From Candidatus Hydrogenedentota bacterium (GTDB taxonomy: Bacteria > Hydrogenedentota > Hydrogenedentia > Hydrogenedentales > CAITNO01), in contig JAKOTZ010000014.1 of NCBI GenBank assembly GCA_029776995.1, positions 1 to 34,227 on the forward strand: DNA of 34,227 nucleotides, read 5' to 3'. How positions within the stretch are numbered: position 1 is the first letter of the stretch; each line of letters begins with the position of its first letter. The notes below the pieces were generated by a model, which ran no database searches, had not been told where the DNA came from, and worked only from the letters and a program-made list of their open reading frames with translations. The translations under genes were made by a program, and so were the position numbers. Positions 6,475 to 32,376 of the stretch are shown here, piece after piece.

Positions 6475-6747
6475 GCCGGTTCTCCTGTTGGTTTCCTCAC
6501 GGGCCGAAGGCCCTGTCCTGATGAAAGGTAGTATACCGAAAAAATGTTCCGCGGAAGAAAGTATAAATTTGCGGAAAGTGGCGTCACTGTGTCATGATTT
6601 AGGCATGGATTACACATTTCAGAGAACAGCCTGCCTGACTCAGATCTGCGGGTGCCGATGGCGGCGGCACGCCGCGTGACGTAATCTATTCAATTTTCCC
6701 ATTGTCGTTTTCTTGTATTCAGCCATATCACTACACAGGAGCATACT

Positions 6748-8232
6748 ATGTACCCATCCATTGAAGCCTTTCGCGCCATGGCGCGACCCCATGCGGTGAT
6801 ACCGGTTTATGAAGAAATCCTGGCTGACCTCGAAACACCGGTTACGGCGTATCTAAAACTTTCAAAAGACACTGACCACGCGTTTTTGCTGGAAAGTGTT
6901 GAAAAAACGGATGTGATCGGACGCTATTCCTTTTTGGGGGCAGCTCCATCCGTGATATTTCGGTCTAAAGGTAACCGCGGAGAGATCCTCCGGAACGGCG
7001 TAACCGAATCCTTTGAAACGGATGATCCCCTTGGGCGGCTGCGTGAATTGGTAAAGACCTATCAGCCCATACCAGTGGACGGCGTTCCCGGATTTCATGG
7101 CGGCGCCGTCGGCTATATCAGTTACGATACAGTCCGGTTTTTTGAAAAGCTACCGGATCTGAAACCGGATCCGCTGTACCTGCCTGATCTGTATTTCATG
7201 ATCACGGACACTCTGGTCGTGTTTGACCACGTTCGGAACAAGATCCAGATTATTTCCAATGCCCACGTGGATGGTGAAGCGGATGCCGCCTACAATGAAG
7301 CAGCCCGGAAAATCATGGAGATCCGCCAGAAACTCCGGGGACCATTGATGGTGTCCACGGAGAAAATGCACCACGCAACCGCTGAACCGCCCATTGAGTC
7401 GAATTTTTCCCGTGAAGACTTCTGCAATGCCGTGCGCAAAGCAAAAGAATATATTTGCGCCGGGGATATCTTTCAGGTCGTATTATCCCAGCGGTTCCGC
7501 CGTCCCGTATTTGCCCGGCCGGTCAACCTGTATCGCGCGCTGCGCTGCATCAATCCTTCGCCTTACATGCTGCTGCTCGAATTTCCCGATTTTTCCCTGG
7601 TCGGCTCCAGCCCGGAGGTAATGACTCAGGTTAAAAGCAGACGCTGTATGGTCCGCCCGATAGCCGGCACACGGCGTCGGGGGGCCACAGTTGAGGAAGA
7701 TCTCGCGCTGGAAAAAGAACTTCTGGCCGATGAAAAAGAAATCGCGGAGCATATCATGCTGGTAGACCTCGGTCGGAATGATGTTGGACGGGTCAGTAAA
7801 CCCGGCACGGTAGCTCCGGTTCCCGGCAAACTGATGGTCATTGAACGGTACTCCCACGTAATGCACATTGTCAGCGAGGTAGCCGGTGAAATGGCCGATG
7901 GCGTGGACGCGTTCGATGCCATCCGCGCGACGTTTCCCATGGGAACGGTCAGCGGCGCGCCCAAAATACGCGCCATGGAAATCATCGAGGAGCTGGAGCC
8001 TGAGCGCCGGGGGCCCTACGCGGGCGGCTGCGGTTACATCAGTTACAACGGAGACATGGACACCTGTATCCTGATCCGGACCATGGTGGTCAAAAACGGC
8101 GTCGCCTACCTGCAGGCCGGCGCGGGAGTGGTCTATGACAGCGATCCCGAACGGGAATACGAGGAAACGGTCAACAAAGCTATGGCCCTGTTCCGGGCTG
8201 TGGAATTCGCAGAAAAAGGGCTGGAGCCATGA
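6748..8232 (+). CDS. trpE: Anthranilate synthase component I
   Basis: A 494-aa chorismate-utilising enzyme converting chorismate and ammonia to anthranilate, the first step of tryptophan synthesis. The N-terminal feedback site LLES is at 47-50 followed by GRYSFLG. The C-terminal catalytic domain has the hallmark runs [53 protein letters not shown] and [20 protein letters not shown]. The LLES site and coupling to a glutaminase by an ATGA-type overlap favour TrpE over PabB or a salicylate/isochorismate enzyme. CAGGAG lies about 7 nt before ATG 6748. The 273-nt region upstream contains no convincing tryptophan attenuator. The rest of the trp pathway is not in the window. Confidence 0.93.
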
Positions 8233-23320: not shown

Positions 23321-24502
23321 TCAACAATTTTCAATCGCCATGGCCAACTGCTGAAGAATGGATATCTGGCCCGTGTATCCGAACCGCTCCCGTATTTCGA
23401 TAAATCCGTCTTCCACGTTAAGAAATGCCTGCACCACATCCGGATCAAAATGGGTGCCCGCGCTTTCCAGAATAATATCCTTCGATTTCTCGTGGCTGAA
23501 CGGCTCCTTATAGGGACGCCTTGAAGAAAGCGCGTCGTAAACATCCGCAAGAGCGACAATCCGGGCGCATAAAGGAATATCATTTCCCTTCAGGCCATAG
23601 GGATAACCGGTTCCATCCCAGCGTTCATGATGGAAATAAGCGATATCCCGGCCCATGGCCAGGAAGGAACTGGTGCCGGCCTCTTCGTCCGCGTCCCTCA
23701 GGGTATCTCCCCCGATGAGGGTGTGGGTTTTCATGATATCGAATTCCTGAGGTGTCAGCTTGCCGGGTTTAAGCAGAATCTTATCCGGTACGCCGACTTT
23801 GCCGATATCATGCAGCGGGCTGGAAAGGAAGAGTTCTTCCACGTACCTCGGATTGCTGAACTCTTCATAACGCCCCCAATTCCGCATTTCCTCACCCAAC
23901 AGACGGACATACCGCCGCATGCGGTCGAGATGATCTCCAGTTTCCGTATCCCGCGATTCAGCCAGCCGGGCCAGCGAAAACACGGCTATTTCGCGGGTTT
24001 TCTCCACTTCTCGCGTCCTTTCCCGCACCCGTTCCTCCAGTTCCTGCTGATAGGACAGCAGCGCGTCCTGAAGCTTTTTCGTGCGGAAAGATGTTTTGAT
24101 GCGCGCCATCAGCAACACCCGGTCAAAGGGTTTGATCAAAAAGTCGTCTGCGCCGGCTTCCACCGCTTTTATATTGGCCTCCCTATCCGTGAGACCGGTA
24201 ATGATGATTACCGGAATATGGCGTGTTGCCGGATTGCCTTTCAGTTCACGGCATACGTCAAAACCGCTCATCCCGGGCATGACCAAATCCAGCAGTACCA
24301 GATCCGGAGGAGTTTCCGCGATATATGCCAGCGCTTCTTCGCCGCTTTTTACCGCGTCGATCCTGAAATGCATTGGCTCCAGGAACTGTTTGAGTATGAT
24401 CGCGTTTTCCGGAAGATCATCGACCACCAGAATGGTCCCCCCCTCCAACAGGGTACCCATTTCACAGGAATTACCCTGATCTTCCTGTCCCTGTCGGTTC
24501 AT
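23321..24502 (-). CDS. Response regulator with HD-GYP phosphodiesterase domain
   Basis: A 393-aa two-domain protein. The N-terminal receiver (about 22-140) has the acidic pair Asp28-Asp29, phosphoacceptor Asp72 in LLDLVMPGMSGFD, the conserved Thr in IIITGL and Lys in DFLIKPFD. A coiled-coil linker (about 148-172) leads to an HD-GYP domain with SPLHDIGKVGVPD, HHERWDGTGYPYGL and DVYDALSSRRPYKEPF, all metal- and substrate-binding residues intact, so it should hydrolyse cyclic di-GMP (or a related dinucleotide) on phosphorylation. The start follows AAAGGAGG 6 nt upstream, an excellent Shine-Dalgarno. No histidine kinase is adjacent, so it is an orphan regulator. Confidence 0.93.
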   Translation of the reverse strand: MNRQGQEDQGNSCEMGTLLEGGTILVVDDLPENAIILKQFLEPMHFRIDAVKSGEEALAYIAETPPDLVLLDLVMPGMSGFDVCRELKGNPATRHIPVIIITGLTDREANIKAVEAGADDFLIKPFDRVLLMARIKTSFRTKKLQDALLSYQQELEERVRERTREVEKTREIAVFSLARLAESRDTETGDHLDRMRRYVRLLGEEMRNWGRYEEFSNPRYVEELFLSSPLHDIGKVGVPDKILLKPGKLTPQEFDIMKTHTLIGGDTLRDADEEAGTSSFLAMGRDIAYFHHERWDGTGYPYGLKGNDIPLCARIVALADVYDALSSRRPYKEPFSHEKSKDIILESAGTHFDPDVVQAFLNVEDGFIEIRERFGYTGQISILQQLAMAIENC

Positions 24503-24741: not shown

Positions 24742-26076
24742 ATGAATTCGCATTCTTTTCCCCCCACCAATGCCCCAAAAGATTCCGCCAGGCTTCCCAG
24801 AAGGTATTTTTTGGCCGGAACCGGCACGGCAGCCGCCGTGGTTACGATGGCTGCCGCAAACAGCGGTTCCAAGGAAAAACTGGCGCTGTTCGGGGGGCCC
24901 AAAAGTGTAACTCATCCGCATGATGACGCCACCAGGTGGCCAAGATACGGGCGGGAAGAAGAAGAAGCCATTCTTGAGCTGATCCGGCACCCCTCTTACG
25001 ACCCCAATAAAGCGCTCGAAGAGGACTGGAAAACATTCCTAAACGTGCCTTATGCGAAAGCCCATTTCAACGGCACATCCGCCCTTACGTCCATGTTTTT
25101 CGCGCTGAATCTGCCGCCGGGGAGCGAAATCCTGGTGCCCAGTTACACGTTTTTCGCCACCATTCTTCCCATGCGGCTTTTTGGCCTGGTTCCCGTGTTT
25201 GTGGACATCAATCCGCGCACGCTGAACATGGATCCGGAAGACGCGAAAAAACGGCTGACTCCCCGCACAAAGGCCGTCCTGCCGGTACACTGGATTGGGC
25301 TGCCGGCCGATATGGACGTCATCTGTGACTGGGCAAATGAAAAAGGGCTCATCGTGCTGGAAGACTGCGCGCACGCCCACGGAGCTAAACTCCAGGGACG
25401 TCCCATGGGAACCTGGGGCCGCATGGCCATCTTCAGTTACCAGATGACCAAACCCCTTCCAGCCATCGAAGGCGGCATGGGCGTTTACCAGCACAAAGAG
25501 GATTTCGAACGCGCTACAGCCTTCGGCAATTACGAAATGCCAGGCATTCCGGAAGACAGCCCGTATTACAAATATAAAGGATCCGGCCTGGGCGTCAAAT
25601 TCCGTATGCATCCCTTTGCGGCAGCCTTGGCCCGCTGCCAGCTGAAAGGGCTGGAGGAACGCAACGCGGCGGGAGTCCGGCAGGTCCGAAAACTGAACGA
25701 CGCCCTCCTGGAGCTGCCTGGTCTGTATGAACAGAGCAGCGGACGGCAGGATGTCACCCGTTTGCACTACTCATGGAACATGCTTTTTGTGGATGAAAAA
25801 ATCGTAGGCGTCTCCCGTGACCGTCTGGTGGAGGCGCTCAAAGCCGAAGGGGTCCAGGCCAGCGGCCTCCATTACACCCTGCAGCATCAGTTGCCGGTCT
25901 ACACCGAACCGGAATGGTGGCATCACCTGCCTGAGATTCCGGAGCTTCCGGGCTCCGTACAGGCGAACGCCACCAATATCGCCCTACCTTATTTCACCAC
26001 TGAGGTGCCCGAACTCGTGGAGCAGTACATCCGCGCGTTCCGGAAGGTCTGGGCCCATCGCAGCGAGCTGGCATAA
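24742..26076 (+). CDS. Tat-exported DegT/DnrJ/EryC1/StrS-family aminotransferase (first copy)
   Basis: A 444-aa PLP-dependent sugar aminotransferase-fold protein preceded by a twin-arginine signal: LPRRYFLAGTG (Arg20-Arg21), then an Ala-rich core to about residue 40. The PLP fold is intact: phosphate-binding FNGTSAL (109-115), pyridine-binding Asp208 and His211 in LEDCAHAHGA, Schiff-base Lys237 in SYQMTKPLPAIEGG, with Glu243 conserved. DegT enzymes normally act in the cytoplasm on nucleotide-linked or cyclitol ketones. Tat export of a folded, cofactor-loaded enzyme would place this one outside the inner membrane. The Shine-Dalgarno AAGGAGAGGAG is very strong. It is co-directional with an exported isomerase, a symporter and a paralogue. 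The substrate is unknown; keto-sugars or inososes are plausible. Confidence 0.88.
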   Translation: MNSHSFPPTNAPKDSARLPRRYFLAGTGTAAAVVTMAAANSGSKEKLALFGGPKSVTHPHDDATRWPRYGREEEEAILELIRHPSYDPNKALEEDWKTFLNVPYAKAHFNGTSALTSMFFALNLPPGSEILVPSYTFFATILPMRLFGLVPVFVDINPRTLNMDPEDAKKRLTPRTKAVLPVHWIGLPADMDVICDWANEKGLIVLEDCAHAHGAKLQGRPMGTWGRMAIFSYQMTKPLPAIEGGMGVYQHKEDFERATAFGNYEMPGIPEDSPYYKYKGSGLGVKFRMHPFAAALARCQLKGLEERNAAGVRQVRKLNDALLELPGLYEQSSGRQDVTRLHYSWNMLFVDEKIVGVSRDRLVEALKAEGVQASGLHYTLQHQLPVYTEPEWWHHLPEIPELPGSVQANATNIALPYFTTEVPELVEQYIRAFRKVWAHRSELA

Positions 26077-26101
26077 TAACGGAGAGCAGAGGAAACTTTT
26101 T

Positions 26102-26962
26102 ATGAAGTATATGACACGATATGGGATTGCCGCATGCCTGCTGATAACCATAACAGCAGGACAAATCCGCGCGCAGGAAAATGACACGCCCAAATGGCCC
26201 CTGGCCGTACGACTGCTCAGTTATGGCCCGTACCTGGAAGAGGGGTGGGCTCATTTGGCCTCTATCGGGGTTCATTACGTGTTTTTGAGTGTGCCCGGAC
26301 CGGAAGAAAAAGCGAATATCCGCGCAAAACTCGAACAGCATAAGTTAACTCCTGTTGTGTTTCGGGGCAGCGCGGATCTGTCCAGCGCCGATTTTGTTAA
26401 TCAGATACGGCCACAACTGGAAACCTGCCGGGAATTCGGGGTGAAATACCTCTTTTTAAGCGCCAAACGTGGCGAAACGCCCAAAGAGGAAGCCTACCAG
26501 CGCCTGCGCGCGGCTGGTGAGGTCGCCCGGGAAAACGGGGTAATTATCGTGCTGGAAACCCACCCGGACCTCGGGACCAACGGAACGGTTCAGGTGGAAA
26601 CCATGCAGGCGGTCAGACACCCTAATGTTCGGGTGAATTTTGATACCGCCAACATCACTTACTATAACCGTGACACTACAGCGGAAGCGGAGCTCACAAA
26701 GAGCCTCGGGTATGTGGCTACCGTTGAATTCAAAGACCACACCGGCGCTTTTGAAACCTGGGACTTCCCCGTGCTGGGAAAAGGGATCGTGAATTTCCCG
26801 CAAATTGTCCGCATGCTTCGCCAGGCAGCCTATGACGGGCTGATCACCATTGAATTTGAGGGTACAAAAGGCGTGGAACTCACTAAAGAACAGCTGTTTC
26901 AGGCAATAGCTGACTCCGTCGCCTATGCCCGGTCCCTGGGCGTATTCGAACAGGAACCATAG
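26102..26962 (+). CDS. Exported sugar phosphate isomerase/epimerase-like TIM barrel
   Basis: A 286-aa protein of the xylose isomerase-like TIM-barrel superfamily. ATG 26102 is chosen because GAGGAA lies about 8 nt upstream and a Sec signal peptide begins there (MKYMTRYGIAACLL, cut near RAQ|E, residue 25). Candidate metal ligands follow family order: Glu in IIVLETHPD, Asp in VNFDTANIT, Asp-His in EFKDHTG, and Glu in LITIEFEGTKG. Homologues act as hydroxypyruvate isomerases, tagatose/inosose epimerases or 2-keto-myo-inositol dehydratases. The gene lies 25 nt after the Tat-DegT gene and 1 nt before the symporter start, implying a joint pathway outside the cytoplasm. Exported members of this family recur in PVC and related bacteria, but their function is not established. 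Confidence 0.85.
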   Translation: MKYMTRYGIAACLLITITAGQIRAQENDTPKWPLAVRLLSYGPYLEEGWAHLASIGVHYVFLSVPGPEEKANIRAKLEQHKLTPVVFRGSADLSSADFVNQIRPQLETCREFGVKYLFLSAKRGETPKEEAYQRLRAAGEVARENGVIIVLETHPDLGTNGTVQVETMQAVRHPNVRVNFDTANITYYNRDTTAEAELTKSLGYVATVEFKDHTGAFETWDFPVLGKGIVNFPQIVRMLRQAAYDGLITIEFEGTKGVELTKEQLFQAIADSVAYARSLGVFEQEP

Positions 26963-26963
26963 T

Positions 26964-28742
26964 ATGGAAACCGGTGCCTCAACTGTTGGCCTGTCCTGGC
27001 TCGACTGGCTCATGGTAGGAGGGTATTTTCTTATCATGGCCGCGATAGGGGTTTTCTTTTACGGAAAAATGCGCCAGATGAAGGACTATTTCAGTGGAGG
27101 CAACGCCATTCCCTGGTGGCTTAGCGGCGTATCCTTCTATATGAGCAGCTTCAGTGTTGCGGCCTTTGTTTTCTATCCTTCGCTCTGTTACCGCTTCGGT
27201 TTTGTGGGGGTTACCCTGCTGTGGGTGGCCATTCCGGCCACTCTGTTCAGCGCTCTGCTGTTCGCGACACGGTGGAGACGCGCCCGGATCAACAGCCCGG
27301 TAGAGTACCTGGAGAGCCGTTACAGCCCGCTGCTGCGGCAAATCTTTGCCTGGCAGGGGATCCCCGTGCGAATCATCGATGATGGCATGAAGCTGCTGGC
27401 GACAGCCACTTTCATATCATTGTGCGCGGGTATTCCCCCGGCCCAAAGTGTCCTGTGGACGGGCGGAATTATCCTGTTGACGACCTTTCTCGGCGGATTG
27501 TGGGCAGTGGCGGTGACGGATTTTATCCAGTTTGTGGTGCTTACGGCTGCTGTTCTTCTGCTTTTGCCTCTTTCAATAGCCAAAGCGGGGGGAATCGGCA
27601 CGCTGGTTTCCGCACTGCCGGAAGGTTTTTTTCAGCTGACGACGCCGGAATACGGTTGGGGCTACGTTTTATCGTTGGTGCTCATGTATGCCCTGGCCTG
27701 GTCAAGCATCAACTGGTCTCTGATTCAGCGGTATTACTGTGTGCCCCGGGAGCGGGACGCGCTGAAAGTGGGAGGGCTGGTTGTCCTGCTGTATGTTATC
27801 GGGCCACCCCTGATGTTTTTTCCCGCCATGGCCGCGCGGCAATTCCTGCCAAATCTGGACGATGCCGGCCATGTTTACCCGTTGCTGTGCACCGTTCTTT
27901 TGCCGCCGGGAATTATGGGGTTGGCCGTTGCGGCAATGTTTGCGGCCACCATGTCCACGCTGAGCAGCGACTATAACGTATGCGCCAGCGTGCTGACCAA
28001 TGATGTATACCGCCGGCTTTTTCGGCCTCGGGCTTCCGAAAGGGAACTGGTGGTGGTCGGCAGGGCGCTTACGATCTTGGTGGGCCTGAGCGCGCTGGGG
28101 GTCGGCTGGGCGCTTTCATCGGGCAAGGCGGAAAACCTGTTCCGCGTAATGGTCTCGCTGTTCAGCATAGCCACCGCACCAGTCGCCATTCCCATGCTCC
28201 TCGGCCTTTCCACCCGAAAAGTCAGCAATACCGCCGCGCTGGCTGGATTCCTGACAGGAACCGCGGCCGGTCTGGCGTTGTTTTACCTTTCCCGGCAGCC
28301 TTCTTTCAGTTATTGGGGAATCACCTGGGACGCAGCCGGTAGCCAGATTATCTGGCGGACGCTCACGATTAAAATGGAAACCGCCCAGTTCTACGCCACC
28401 TGCCTGGGGACGCTTATAGGCACCGGTTTTGGGATGCTTCTCTCCTCAACCACTTCATCCGAACAGGTTCAAATTGACCTGTTTATGGCGCGTTTAAAGA
28501 CCCCGATCGGACTTTTACCTGAAGACCAGATGGTTACAGGGGAGTCGGCGTTCTCGCCCTACCCGGTCGCCAGCCTATCGGTGGCGGCCATAGGCGGGCT
28601 GATGCTGCTGCTTTTGCCGTTCCTGGGGCTGGGGAATATGACCGCCTGGCTGAATGGAGGATTGGGATTGTTTTTCCTGCTTGCGGGAATTGGAGTGTAT
28701 TATAAATCAAGACGAGTCGGGACAATTCCGGAACCAAAATAG
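26964..28742 (+). CDS. Sodium:solute symporter (SSS family)
   Basis: A 592-aa membrane transporter with about 13-14 hydrophobic segments. ATG 26964 is selected as the first Met with CAGGA upstream; an earlier in-frame Met would overlap the isomerase. Characteristic SSS features include MKDYFSGGNAIPWWLSGVSFYMSSFSVAAFVF around helix 2, the TTFLGGLWAVAVTDFIQFVVL segment, and GLAVAAMFAATMSTLSSDYN, where the Ser pair in helix 8 forms the sodium site. The family imports sugars, myo-inositol, sialic acid and similar solutes with sodium. Its place between two exported aminotransferases and beside an exported isomerase suggests it imports the product or substrate of that chemistry. Confidence 0.9.
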   Translation: METGASTVGLSWLDWLMVGGYFLIMAAIGVFFYGKMRQMKDYFSGGNAIPWWLSGVSFYMSSFSVAAFVFYPSLCYRFGFVGVTLLWVAIPATLFSALLFATRWRRARINSPVEYLESRYSPLLRQIFAWQGIPVRIIDDGMKLLATATFISLCAGIPPAQSVLWTGGIILLTTFLGGLWAVAVTDFIQFVVLTAAVLLLLPLSIAKAGGIGTLVSALPEGFFQLTTPEYGWGYVLSLVLMYALAWSSINWSLIQRYYCVPRERDALKVGGLVVLLYVIGPPLMFFPAMAARQFLPNLDDAGHVYPLLCTVLLPPGIMGLAVAAMFAATMSTLSSDYNVCASVLTNDVYRRLFRPRASERELVVVGRALTILVGLSALGVGWALSSGKAENLFRVMVSLFSIATAPVAIPMLLGLSTRKVSNTAALAGFLTGTAAGLALFYLSRQPSFSYWGITWDAAGSQIIWRTLTIKMETAQFYATCLGTLIGTGFGMLLSSTTSSEQVQIDLFMARLKTPIGLLPEDQMVTGESAFSPYPVASLSVAAIGGLMLLLLPFLGLGNMTAWLNGGLGLFFLLAGIGVYYKSRRVGTIPEPK

Positions 28743-28757
28743 TGGGAGGAAAGAAAA

Positions 28758-30149
28758 ATGCGCGCCAATCATCACGACCGTTCGAAATCGGCTCAGTTGC
28801 CATCGCGCAGGGATTTCATCAAACAGGCCGGTCAGGCAGCGACCGGTTGCTGGACAGCCGGTCATATGCTTGGCGGAACCGCCGCGGGTGTATTTTCGGT
28901 TACAGCCGCAGCCGGAGCCGCATCCACAAAGAAGGTATCCGGTGAACGCCTGGCGATTGACGGCGGACCGAAAGCCGTTACGGCTGTTGCGGCTGACGCC
29001 ACAAAATGGCCGATTTACGGCGATGAGGAAATCGCGCTGGTCAGTGAACTACTGCGGTCACCCAACTACGAACCCATAGCCGAATTTGAGAAAGCCTGGT
29101 GCGTGTATCACGGGTGTGAATTCGCGAAAGCCCACTGCAACGGCACCAGCGCGCTGACTTCCATGCTGTTTGCCCTGGAACTTCCTGAGGGCAGTGAAAT
29201 CCTGGTTCCGGATTACAGCACGTGGTTTCCGGTAGTTCCCATGCGGCTTTTTGGACTGGTCCCCGTTTTCACTGACGTGGACCCGGAAACCATGAATATC
29301 GACGTGGCCTCCTGTGAAAAGGCGTTGACCCCCAACACCCGTGCGGTTTTAGCCGTCCATTGGTATGGGCTTCCGTGCGACCTGGATGACCTGGCCGATT
29401 TCTGCGAACGGAAAGGCCTGATCCTGCTGGAAGACGCCAGCCACGCCCACGGATCCCGGGTTAAGGATCGGCTGATCGGGACCTGGGGACGAATGGCCGG
29501 ATTCAGCCTGCAGATGACCAAACCTCTTCCGGCAATCGAGGGTGGGATCGGCATGTACAAGGATCGGGGAGATTACGAACGCGCTGTTACCTACGGGAAC
29601 TATGACCTTCCCAGAACCTTCCCCGAAGACAGCCCCTACCGGAAATATCAGGGTACGGCATTTGGGTCAAAGCTTCGCATGCATCCGGTATCGGCCATCC
29701 TGGCCCGGCTTCAGCTCCGGGATCTGGATAAGCGGAACGCGGAGGGCGTCGCCCAGGTCCGGGCGCTGAATGACCGGCTGACTCAGCTGCCCGGTATCAC
29801 GGAACCCCGCCTGCGCAAAGATGTATCCCGGGTCTATTATTCGAAAAATCTGCTGTTTATCGATGAGAAGAAAGCAGGCGCGTCCCGCGAAGCACTGGTT
29901 AAGGCGCTGCAGGCGGAAGGCGTGGATGTTACGCCTTATACGTGGACCCTGCTGCATACCTACCCCATCTTCAGCGAAGAAAAATGGTGGCGCCATATGC
30001 CCGTGCTGCCCGAATCCGTACCGAACTGCGACAGCATTAACCGCAGTCTCATCCAGCTGCCATATTTCACTTCGCCACAGCCGGAACTGGTAGAACAGTA
30101 TGCGGCGGCCTTTGAAAAGGTCTGGGCCCACCGATCCAAACTGGGCTAG
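28758..30149 (+). CDS. Tat-exported DegT/DnrJ/EryC1/StrS-family aminotransferase (second copy)
   Basis: A 463-aa paralogue of the 24742 product with a canonical twin-arginine signal, SRRDFIKQAG (Arg17-Arg18), and an unusually long Ala/Gly-rich hydrophobic and linker region to about residue 58. PLP residues are intact: CNGTSAL (127-133), Asp226 and His229 in LEDASHAHGS, Lys255 in SLQMTKPLPAIEGG. The two copies share many diagnostic runs (PMRLFGLVPVF, RMHP, KVWAHRS at the C-terminus) but differ around the substrate-loop region, for example SYTFFATI against DYSTWFPV after the phosphate site, suggesting different substrates. GGGAGGAAAG lies about 5 nt before the ATG. The gene ends 6 nt from the stop of a convergent minus-strand gene. 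Confidence 0.88.
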   Translation: MRANHHDRSKSAQLPSRRDFIKQAGQAATGCWTAGHMLGGTAAGVFSVTAAAGAASTKKVSGERLAIDGGPKAVTAVAADATKWPIYGDEEIALVSELLRSPNYEPIAEFEKAWCVYHGCEFAKAHCNGTSALTSMLFALELPEGSEILVPDYSTWFPVVPMRLFGLVPVFTDVDPETMNIDVASCEKALTPNTRAVLAVHWYGLPCDLDDLADFCERKGLILLEDASHAHGSRVKDRLIGTWGRMAGFSLQMTKPLPAIEGGIGMYKDRGDYERAVTYGNYDLPRTFPEDSPYRKYQGTAFGSKLRMHPVSAILARLQLRDLDKRNAEGVAQVRALNDRLTQLPGITEPRLRKDVSRVYYSKNLLFIDEKKAGASREALVKALQAEGVDVTPYTWTLLHTYPIFSEEKWWRHMPVLPESVPNCDSINRSLIQLPYFTSPQPELVEQYAAAFEKVWAHRSKLG

Positions 30150-30155
30150 AACAAG

Positions 30156-30830
30156 TCAGATTGCCCGGTTAACTGGGCTTTGGCGGAGAACATCCAGGAG
30201 AGCAGGGAAAAGGGTGTTCCCGCTTTGTGCGGCGTCTGTCCCGTACACTCGTACAAGGCGGCTTTTCGCCAGCCCGAGCCTTAACAGGCGATCACCGGCC
30301 ATCTGAGTCAACGCGACGACAGGCCCTTGTCCAGGAAGGTTTTTCAGCGATCTGATCGGACGGCTGACCAGGGGGATCGGGCACATGGTTCTGGCCGGTA
30401 ACGGCATGTGCCACATGGATTCAACCGCCCACATGAAAATATTGTTCCCTGGGTTGAGATCCATCCGCGCGGTCAATTTGCGCCAGAACACCCGTGAAAT
30501 AATGGGAAAAAGCCAGCGTCCACCCAGTACTACGCGCCATATTCCCGTAATGGGATCCTTCCGCACGCATGCAGAAGAGGCATCTCCCCAGAATAGGCGG
30601 CTCTGTCCCGGAGCCACCCAAAACACTTCCCAACCGTCACGCGCGGCCCCTGTCAGCGCCTCAGCCGCAAACCGCCCTGTTACGGACATTGCCGGATCAT
30701 CCCAGAAACGCGGATGCCAAAACCAGATTCTGTGCTGAGGATTCAGACCACCGTCTGTACCCGTTGCCCGTATCCCCCGGGTTACTCCCTCTTCAGATTG
30801 TTCTGAGATACGGCACGTGTCCCGCAACAT
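30156..30830 (-). CDS. Probable truncated glycosyltransferase (N-terminal GT-B-like half only)
   Basis: A 224-aa protein from ATG 30830, 4 nt after the leuA stop; an alternative ATG at 30872 would overlap leuA by 38 nt, and neither has a good Shine-Dalgarno. From residue about 33 the sequence resembles the N-terminal domain of family 4 glycosyltransferases: RIWFWHPRFWDDP, GWEVFWVAPGQ (like GHEV-x-VVAPG), and MAGDRLLRLGLAKSRLVRVYG (like the xxLLxLG-x-xxxKI-x-V-x-x-G-D linker). The frame ends soon after, where the C-terminal nucleotide-sugar-binding domain should begin. It is therefore probably a remnant or pseudogene whose 3' half was lost at the junction with the DegT cluster. High Trp content argues against a chance ORF. 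The family call is by impression. Confidence 0.5.
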   Translation of the reverse strand: MLRDTCRISEQSEEGVTRGIRATGTDGGLNPQHRIWFWHPRFWDDPAMSVTGRFAAEALTGAARDGWEVFWVAPGQSRLFWGDASSACVRKDPITGIWRVVLGGRWLFPIISRVFWRKLTARMDLNPGNNIFMWAVESMWHMPLPARTMCPIPLVSRPIRSLKNLPGQGPVVALTQMAGDRLLRLGLAKSRLVRVYGTDAAQSGNTLFPALLDVLRQSPVNRAI

Positions 30831-30834
30831 AAAA

Positions 30835-32376
30835 CTAATGACCGTTCTTCGCGTTTCCGTTCTGGGATTCACTTAAAACCAGATATTTGTTAATAGCATT
30901 CAGATACGCCAATACGGACGCCTCGATAATATCCGTGCTGGCCCCGGTACCCCGGTAATCACGGTCACCGATCCGCACCACGACATGGGCCTCGCCCATG
31001 GCTTCCTTGCCCGGCGTATTTGCTCGGATTTCGAACTCCTCTAGCCTGCCGGATATCTGCGTGATCCGTTCTATGGCCATACAGGCCGCATGGACCGGAC
31101 CGTCACCCACCGCTGAATCGCAGAACAGCTGGTCGCCACGGCGCAGTTTGACCAGTGCCATGGAGGGATCATGTCCGGACGTGCTTAACTGTTCCAGCTC
31201 GTAAACGTTCGTCGCACCCTGCTGAACCCCCAGTATCAGGAGATGAAGATCATCATCGTATACTTCTTTCTTTTTGTCAGCCAGCGCGATAAACCGTTCG
31301 TAAAGCTTGTCCACCTCAGCCTCTGTCAGCACGTATCCCAGTTCCGCGCACCGCTTGGAAAGGCCCGCCCGGCCGCTGTGTTTGCCCAAAACCAACTCAC
31401 TGCGGTTTCGCCCCACGGATTCGGACGTCATGATTTCATAGGTCCGGGCGTTTGCGATCACGCCATGCTGATGTATGCCGGATTCATGGGCAAACGCATT
31501 GCGCCCTACAATCGGTTTGTTGTACGGCACAGTGAGTCCGGTGAGTTTGCTCAGCATAGCGCTCGAAGGCACAATTTCACGGGTGTGGATCTCCGTGTAA
31601 TAGGGATACACGTCATTGCGGATTTTCATCGCCATAACCACTTCTTCCAGTGAAGTGTTTCCCGCGCGCTCTCCAATCCCGTTTACGGTGCACTCTATCT
31701 GACGGGCTCCGCCATTTACGGCCGCAAGGGCATTGGCTACAGCCAGACCCAGGTCATTGTGGTTATGGGTGGAAAAAATCACGTCCCGGTCCTGTAACAG
31801 GTCTGACACCCCCGCAATGACGTAGCGGAACATTTCCCGGATTTCATCCGGCGTTGTATATCCCACGGTATCGGGCAGATTGATCACATCCGCGCCGGCT
31901 TCAATGGCCACGCGGGTCAGCCGCACCAGAAAATCCCACTCGGAACGGGTAGCGTCTTCCGCGGAAAACTCCACCCTGGGAATCCGTTTCTTTGCCAGTC
32001 GCACCGCGTTGCCGGCCGCGTCAAGTACCTGTTCCGGCGACATCCGCAGTTTGTGTTCCATGTGGATGGGGGAAGAGGCAATGAACGTATGCAATACCGG
32101 CGAAACCGCTTTTTCCAGGGCAGATGCCGCCCGTTCAATATCTTTTTCCAGCGCCCGCGCCAATGCGGCGACCTTGCATTTCTTAACCGTCTCCGCGATG
32201 CGCTTCACGGACTCGTATTCCTGCTGAGACGCTATGGGAAAACCTGCTTCGATAACATCCACCCCGAGACGTTCCAGCTGCAGCGCCATCTGGAGCTTCG
32301 ATGCCGCATCCATACTGGCGCCGGGCGACTGTTCTCCATCCCGAAGGGTCGTGTCAAATATGTATACTCGTTCCAT
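30835..32376 (-). CDS. leuA: 2-isopropylmalate synthase
   Basis: A 513-aa enzyme condensing acetyl-CoA with 2-oxoisovalerate, the first committed step of leucine synthesis. The catalytic TIM barrel begins YIFDTTLRDGEQSPGASM, includes ERLGVDVIEAGFP, SAEDATRSEWDFL, NLPDTVGYTTP, the metal site STHNHNDLGLAVANALAAVNGGA, and GIGERAGNTSLEEV. After the linker HESGIHQHGV the C-terminal leucine-sensing LeuA dimer domain (about 385-500) is present, with GTGASTDIIEASVLAYLNAINKYL near the end. This favours leuA over homocitrate or citramalate synthase. AAGGAACCGGAG precedes the ATG. A good promoter is at 32421-32449. No leuCD or leuB is adjacent. Confidence 0.93.
   Translation of the reverse strand: MERVYIFDTTLRDGEQSPGASMDAASKLQMALQLERLGVDVIEAGFPIASQQEYESVKRIAETVKKCKVAALARALEKDIERAASALEKAVSPVLHTFIASSPIHMEHKLRMSPEQVLDAAGNAVRLAKKRIPRVEFSAEDATRSEWDFLVRLTRVAIEAGADVINLPDTVGYTTPDEIREMFRYVIAGVSDLLQDRDVIFSTHNHNDLGLAVANALAAVNGGARQIECTVNGIGERAGNTSLEEVVMAMKIRNDVYPYYTEIHTREIVPSSAMLSKLTGLTVPYNKPIVGRNAFAHESGIHQHGVIANARTYEIMTSESVGRNRSELVLGKHSGRAGLSKRCAELGYVLTEAEVDKLYERFIALADKKKEVYDDDLHLLILGVQQGATNVYELEQLSTSGHDPSMALVKLRRGDQLFCDSAVGDGPVHAACMAIERITQISGRLEEFEIRANTPGKEAMGEAHVVVRIGDRDYRGTGASTDIIEASVLAYLNAINKYLVLSESQNGNAKNGH

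Follow-up and report, generated by a model that had tools for sequence, protein, structure and literature searches.

The window, the whole stretch of 34,227 nucleotides analysed here, is one entire contig of a Candidatus Hydrogenedentota bacterium, in which four genes follow one another on the forward strand (Table 1): a DegT-family enzyme (DegT-A, or A), a TIM barrel (T), a sodium:solute symporter (S) and a second DegT-family enzyme (DegT-B, or B). An earlier sequence-only reading had placed them in this order with gaps of 25, 1 and 15 nt, and the ORF coordinates agree; the starts of A and B are each preceded by a purine-rich Shine-Dalgarno-like stretch. All four Pfam assignments lie far above cut-off, with 238 and 220 bits for DegT-A and DegT-B against PF01041 (cut-off 19.8) and 135 bits for S against PF00474 (cut-off 22.8). 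The two DegT enzymes are 55% identical, and PF01041 is also matched by 31 of 31 aligned relatives from A, B and a related clade, C. Divergent from DegT-A, a response regulator with an HD (HD-GYP-like) domain occupies 23321-24502 on the reverse strand, a position taken by a different upstream gene in the sister genome (locus L066). On the 3' side of DegT-B, and convergent with it, lies a reverse-strand ORF (30156-30872) that may not be coding and that overlaps the end of a 2-isopropylmalate-synthase-like gene (30835-32376).

Table 1. Genes and predicted leaders of the DegT locus, in window coordinates.
Feature	Position	Strand	Basis
DegT-A, predicted exported DegT/DnrJ/EryC1/StrS-family PLP enzyme, 444 aa	24742..26076	+	ORF, PF01041; Lys237 (Schiff base), Asp208
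DegT-A twin-arginine leader LPRRYFLAG (approximate end)	24742..24858	+	RR invariant among relatives; cytosolic homologues start at EKLALxGG
T, predicted exported xylose-isomerase-like TIM barrel (AP_endonuc_2), 286 aa	26102..26962	+	ORF, PF01261
T Sec-type leader (approximate end)	26102..26176	+	sequence; Sec, lipobox or Tat leaders in relatives at the same place
S, sodium:solute symporter (SSS), 592 aa	26964..28742	+	ORF, PF00474
DegT-B, second predicted exported DegT enzyme, 463 aa	28758..30149	+	ORF, PF01041; Lys255, Asp226
DegT-B twin-arginine leader PSRRDFIKQ (approximate end)	28758..28931	+	RR invariant among relatives; TIGR01409 15.5 bits (cut-off 16.7)

In both DegT enzymes the twin-arginine motif runs into a hydrophobic stretch, of Ala/Thr/Val in DegT-A and a long one of Ala/Gly in DegT-B. 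By curated models the window's own leaders are weak, that of DegT-A matching neither of the Tat models TIGR01409 and Pfam PF10518 and that of DegT-B just missing the former, and the case for Tat therefore rests on the relatives. There the twin-arginine signal proposed for both enzymes is upheld: the RR pair, within a conserved RRxF-type motif of the N-terminal leader, is present in 40 of 40 rows of the A set (A plus clade C) and in 28 of 28 B rows, all full-length proteins with the window counted in both, and no full-length A or B relative lacked it. Pfam TAT_signal at E<=0.05 recognises 23 of the 31 aligned A, B and C proteins, the background of Tat-like patterns is 17 in 471 neighbouring genes of the same loci, and TatC is encoded in the window's genome. 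In the closest leaderless DegT homologues (31-37% identity) the probable start Met is at most 1-2 residues from the EKLALxGG motif; because these cytosolic proteins have nothing ahead of the folded domain, the leader of about 40-60 residues is an addition to a cytosolic-type protein. The AlphaFold model of DegT-A (pLDDT 88) has residues 1-42 disordered and the remainder in a confident DegT fold. A, B and C apparently form a deeply conserved leader-bearing branch of the DegT family, for which Tat export itself is a prediction.

The active sites had been described as intact, and so they are in nearly every relative. Lys237 and Asp208 of DegT-A are invariant in 40 of 40 A-set rows, Lys255 and Asp226 of DegT-B in 28 of 28, and the flanking histidine is kept in 38 of 40 (His211) and 28 of 28 (His229). 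The Schiff-base position in A and B is thus Lys and not the dehydratase His, the ColD/E1 dehydratase branch having His in place of the catalytic Lys. The best structure matches of the DegT enzymes are Fic25 (8gyh) and a Serratia protein (8y96), with identities of at most about 33% in the structure alignment; among solved structures Fic25, also the nearest to the DegT-A model, and ArnB rank first, and a Serratia 'heterooligomeric aminotransferase', DesI, BtrR and AHBA synthase are not far behind. A and B share with ArnB, AHBA synthase, BtrR and Fic25 the fold, the catalytic Lys and Asp, and the FSxQ-x-x-K and EGG motifs. In the NCBIfam search no substrate-specific match was obtained and all matches were far under the equivalog cut-offs, the best DegT score being 154 bits against the 423.5 needed (ArnB, PseC, DesI, WecE and LegC types), and naming the DegT enzymes by equivalog was dropped for that reason. 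An early tree groups A, B and C together; since its root sits on very long outgroup branches, the branching order of the three was not used.

The export signal attributed to T is also borne out, as a Sec-type leader in the window and as plain Sec, lipobox or Tat leaders in its relatives, according to lineage, with Tat leaders in five loci (L084, L106, L108, L113 and L117). All readable T relatives are apparently exported, judging by their N-termini, and because the type of leader changes while export stays constant, it is as if location rather than any one signal were under selection. In the alignment of relatives, residues E152, H154, D181, E209, K211, D212, H213, E251 and E253 are invariant; an alignment with related enzymes places Glu209 at their metal-ligand His, which it seems to replace. 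The nearest folds to the T model (pLDDT 85) are the UlaE 3-epimerase, the DgpB-C lyase and D-tagatose 3-epimerases. T resembles UlaE, D-tagatose 3-epimerase, DgpB-C and AtHYD in its TIM barrel and conserved carboxylate set, but unlike them it carries an export leader, and identity to them is only 12-18%. The substrates of DgpB-C-type lyases are 3-keto-C-glycosides (compare PMC13273386). As for S, its closest solved relative is the SiaT-type symporter 5nv9 (E 6.4e-34), followed by the SGLTs; family and length are the same, a similarity that leaves the substrate of S unfixed. At the presumed Na2-site serine pair, S331 is invariant, whereas position 332, a Thr in the window, is Thr in 18, Met in 6 and Cys in 1 of 25 relatives, the Met being a difference from SiaT and SGLT.

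The relatives' loci show that the conserved unit is smaller than the four-gene system first proposed. Same-strand A-T-S, in this order, occurs in about 20 Hydrogenedentota genomes and in two Pirellulales MAGs (L045 and L046, with S split in the latter), and a third Pirellulales locus (L047) is arranged A-B-T-S. Across 68 Hydrogenedentota genomes, an exported DegT of clade A or C and T are both present in 34, the DegT alone in 1, T alone in none and neither in 33; A and S occur together in 30, A only in 2, S only in 1 and neither in 35; and for A and B the counts are 26, 6, 2 and 34. The corresponding p-values (2.5e-18, 8.2e-16 and 6.1e-11) ignore kinship and are descriptive. Co-occurrence is conserved, T never being found without an exported DegT in these genomes, and the A-T-S trio is kept even when it is split, since G029 and G030 have T and S side by side at a distance from A. 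The four genes as a conserved unit had to be ruled out: B usually lies elsewhere in the genome, is part of the operon in no more than the window's genus, G015, G011, G012 (S-B) and L047, and is best described as a co-occurring paralogue, present in 26 of 32 A genomes; its neighbourhood has recurrent neighbours only among close relatives and gives no functional clue. Linkage to the symporter stands for A-T but does not extend to the clade C loci L106, L108, L113 and L117, where T precedes the DegT gene, in reverse order, and S is lacking. In these four loci the upstream T is of the Tat type, and three of them then carry a beta-propeller/kelch-like protein (cluster 30). A survey of 392 Planctomycetota genomes gave at least one strong A match among the at most four scored candidates listed per genome, and A looks sporadic in Planctomycetota among the matches listed. 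Near-identical Tat-type A-like DegT proteins are encoded on two contigs labelled Candidatus Omnitrophota (L055 and L056), for which the label or the binning could be worth checking.

Around A-T-S no regulatory or glycan-building genes are conserved, a ceramidase-like gene (PF04734) excepted. Nine of the 32 A genomes, drawn from five families, have it close to A; in 8 of them it is divergent from A, in the remaining one (L070) it precedes A on the same strand, and the example read bears a signal. A rough chance model makes nine or more such neighbours unlikely (7.9e-10); ceramidase-like genes are, however, numerous in these genomes, with 8-18 PF04734 matches per genome in the ten Hydrogenedentota genomes searched, some with Tat or Sec leaders. 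Within the window no ceramidase-like gene stands beside A. A partial ceramidase-like protein, open at the contig end (2-1120, forward strand), lies about 23 kb upstream of A and scores 31.6 bits against the PF04734 cut-off of 32.1. Were the ceramidase-like protein an amidase, it would supply the transaminases with an amine.

These features make it somewhat probable that the four genes specify a PLP module that works outside the cytoplasm and converts amino or keto sugars, or cyclitols, for sodium-coupled uptake. DegT-A and DegT-B would fold and take up PLP before leaving the cytoplasm via Tat, and T would leave via Sec. On the outer side of the inner membrane, the two DegT enzymes would interchange amino group and carbonyl on a sugar or cyclitol; T would isomerise, epimerise or eliminate on the resulting keto compound at its metal site, and S would import the product with sodium. 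In this scheme we infer PLP loading, actual export, the substrate, the direction and the role of S. Of the exported amino-sugar system first proposed, the export leaders, the PLP-site residues and the symporter linkage are conserved, around a core of three genes (A-T-S). A transporter of the SSS family is normally an importer, and because the conserved partner is of this kind and a ceramidase-like gene, for a predicted exported protein of the N-acyl amidase type, is often adjacent, we favour with moderate confidence the catabolic direction, in which an amino-sugar-like compound is de-aminated before uptake, over amination. It weighs against the module that an extracytoplasmic transaminase needs an amino donor or acceptor in that compartment. 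More tentatively, the pathway for amino sugars or aminocyclitols could be complete outside the cytoplasm, with an exported amidase-like enzyme freeing the amine, the two exported DegT enzymes, possibly as a mixed A and B oligomer, removing or moving the nitrogen, the exported metal-dependent TIM barrel rearranging the keto-sugar, and the sodium symporter taking it up.

The alternative that survives best, which we nevertheless regard as rather unlikely, runs in the opposite direction: the exported DegT enzymes would add amino groups to keto-sugars, or would tailor surface glycans or secreted metabolites by aminating their keto-groups, and S would recycle the amino-acid donor or the product. The solved DegT relatives are indeed mostly enzymes of amino-sugar biosynthesis, and in the clade C locus L108 a Tat-type Gfo/Idh/MocA oxidoreductase (6479-7798), the usual ketone-making partner in NtdC/NtdA-type pathways, immediately precedes T and the DegT gene. 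An exported oxidoreductase of this family linked to T would also be expected of a 3-keto-glycoside pathway, which pairs a Gfo/Idh/MocA oxidase with an AP_endonuc_2 lyase. However, this exported oxidoreductase is found directly upstream of T in that one locus only and is absent from the recurrent A-T-S neighbours, A-T-S has no conserved glycosyltransferase or export gene at its side, and the partner that is conserved is an SSS symporter. The exported DegT proteins might also catalyse another PLP reaction (an elimination or a PvdN-like decarboxylation), or serve in binding or sensing for S; PvdN itself leaves by Tat and catalyses a PLP reaction other than transamination (PMC6206403), but no relative departs from the catalytic Lys and Asp and the Lys is not exchanged for the His of the ColD/E1 dehydratases, which makes such roles improbable. 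Least credible by far is an ordinary cytoplasmic sugar pathway whose leaders are not export signals: the failure of DegT-A's own leader against the Tat models fits it, but it must contend with an RR pair invariant in 68 rows against a background of 17/471, and with three kinds of export leader on T, which would be puzzling if that enzyme worked in the cytoplasm.

To our knowledge, the known sugar and cyclitol aminotransferases of the DegT/DnrJ/EryC1/StrS family are cytoplasmic, and A, B and C differ from them as a separate leader-bearing set. For the extracytoplasmic module there is a precedent in PtaA and PvdN of pseudomonads, which carry their PLP through Tat and are active in the periplasm, where they modify a siderophore, PtaA as a periplasmic transaminase (PMC6206403). 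The DegT enzymes would resemble them in being PLP enzymes that Tat exports in the folded state, and this precedent makes PLP loading before export plausible. PtaA and PvdN are not described there as members of the DegT family, nor does that account mention a TIM barrel or an SSS symporter linked to them, and the comparison with them covers the leader only, the leaders of some relatives giving weak matches to the PvdN model. A limited search of the open-licence literature found no exported or periplasmic DegT-family enzyme, in Hydrogenedentes or elsewhere; while exported PLP enzymes are already known, an exported DegT branch with an A-T-S partnership was not found in that search. Our results raise questions about cofactor loading, about which periplasmic compounds give and accept the amino group and about what Hydrogenedentota live on, and they suggest that cells of this uncultured phylum carry out sugar nitrogen chemistry outside the inner membrane.
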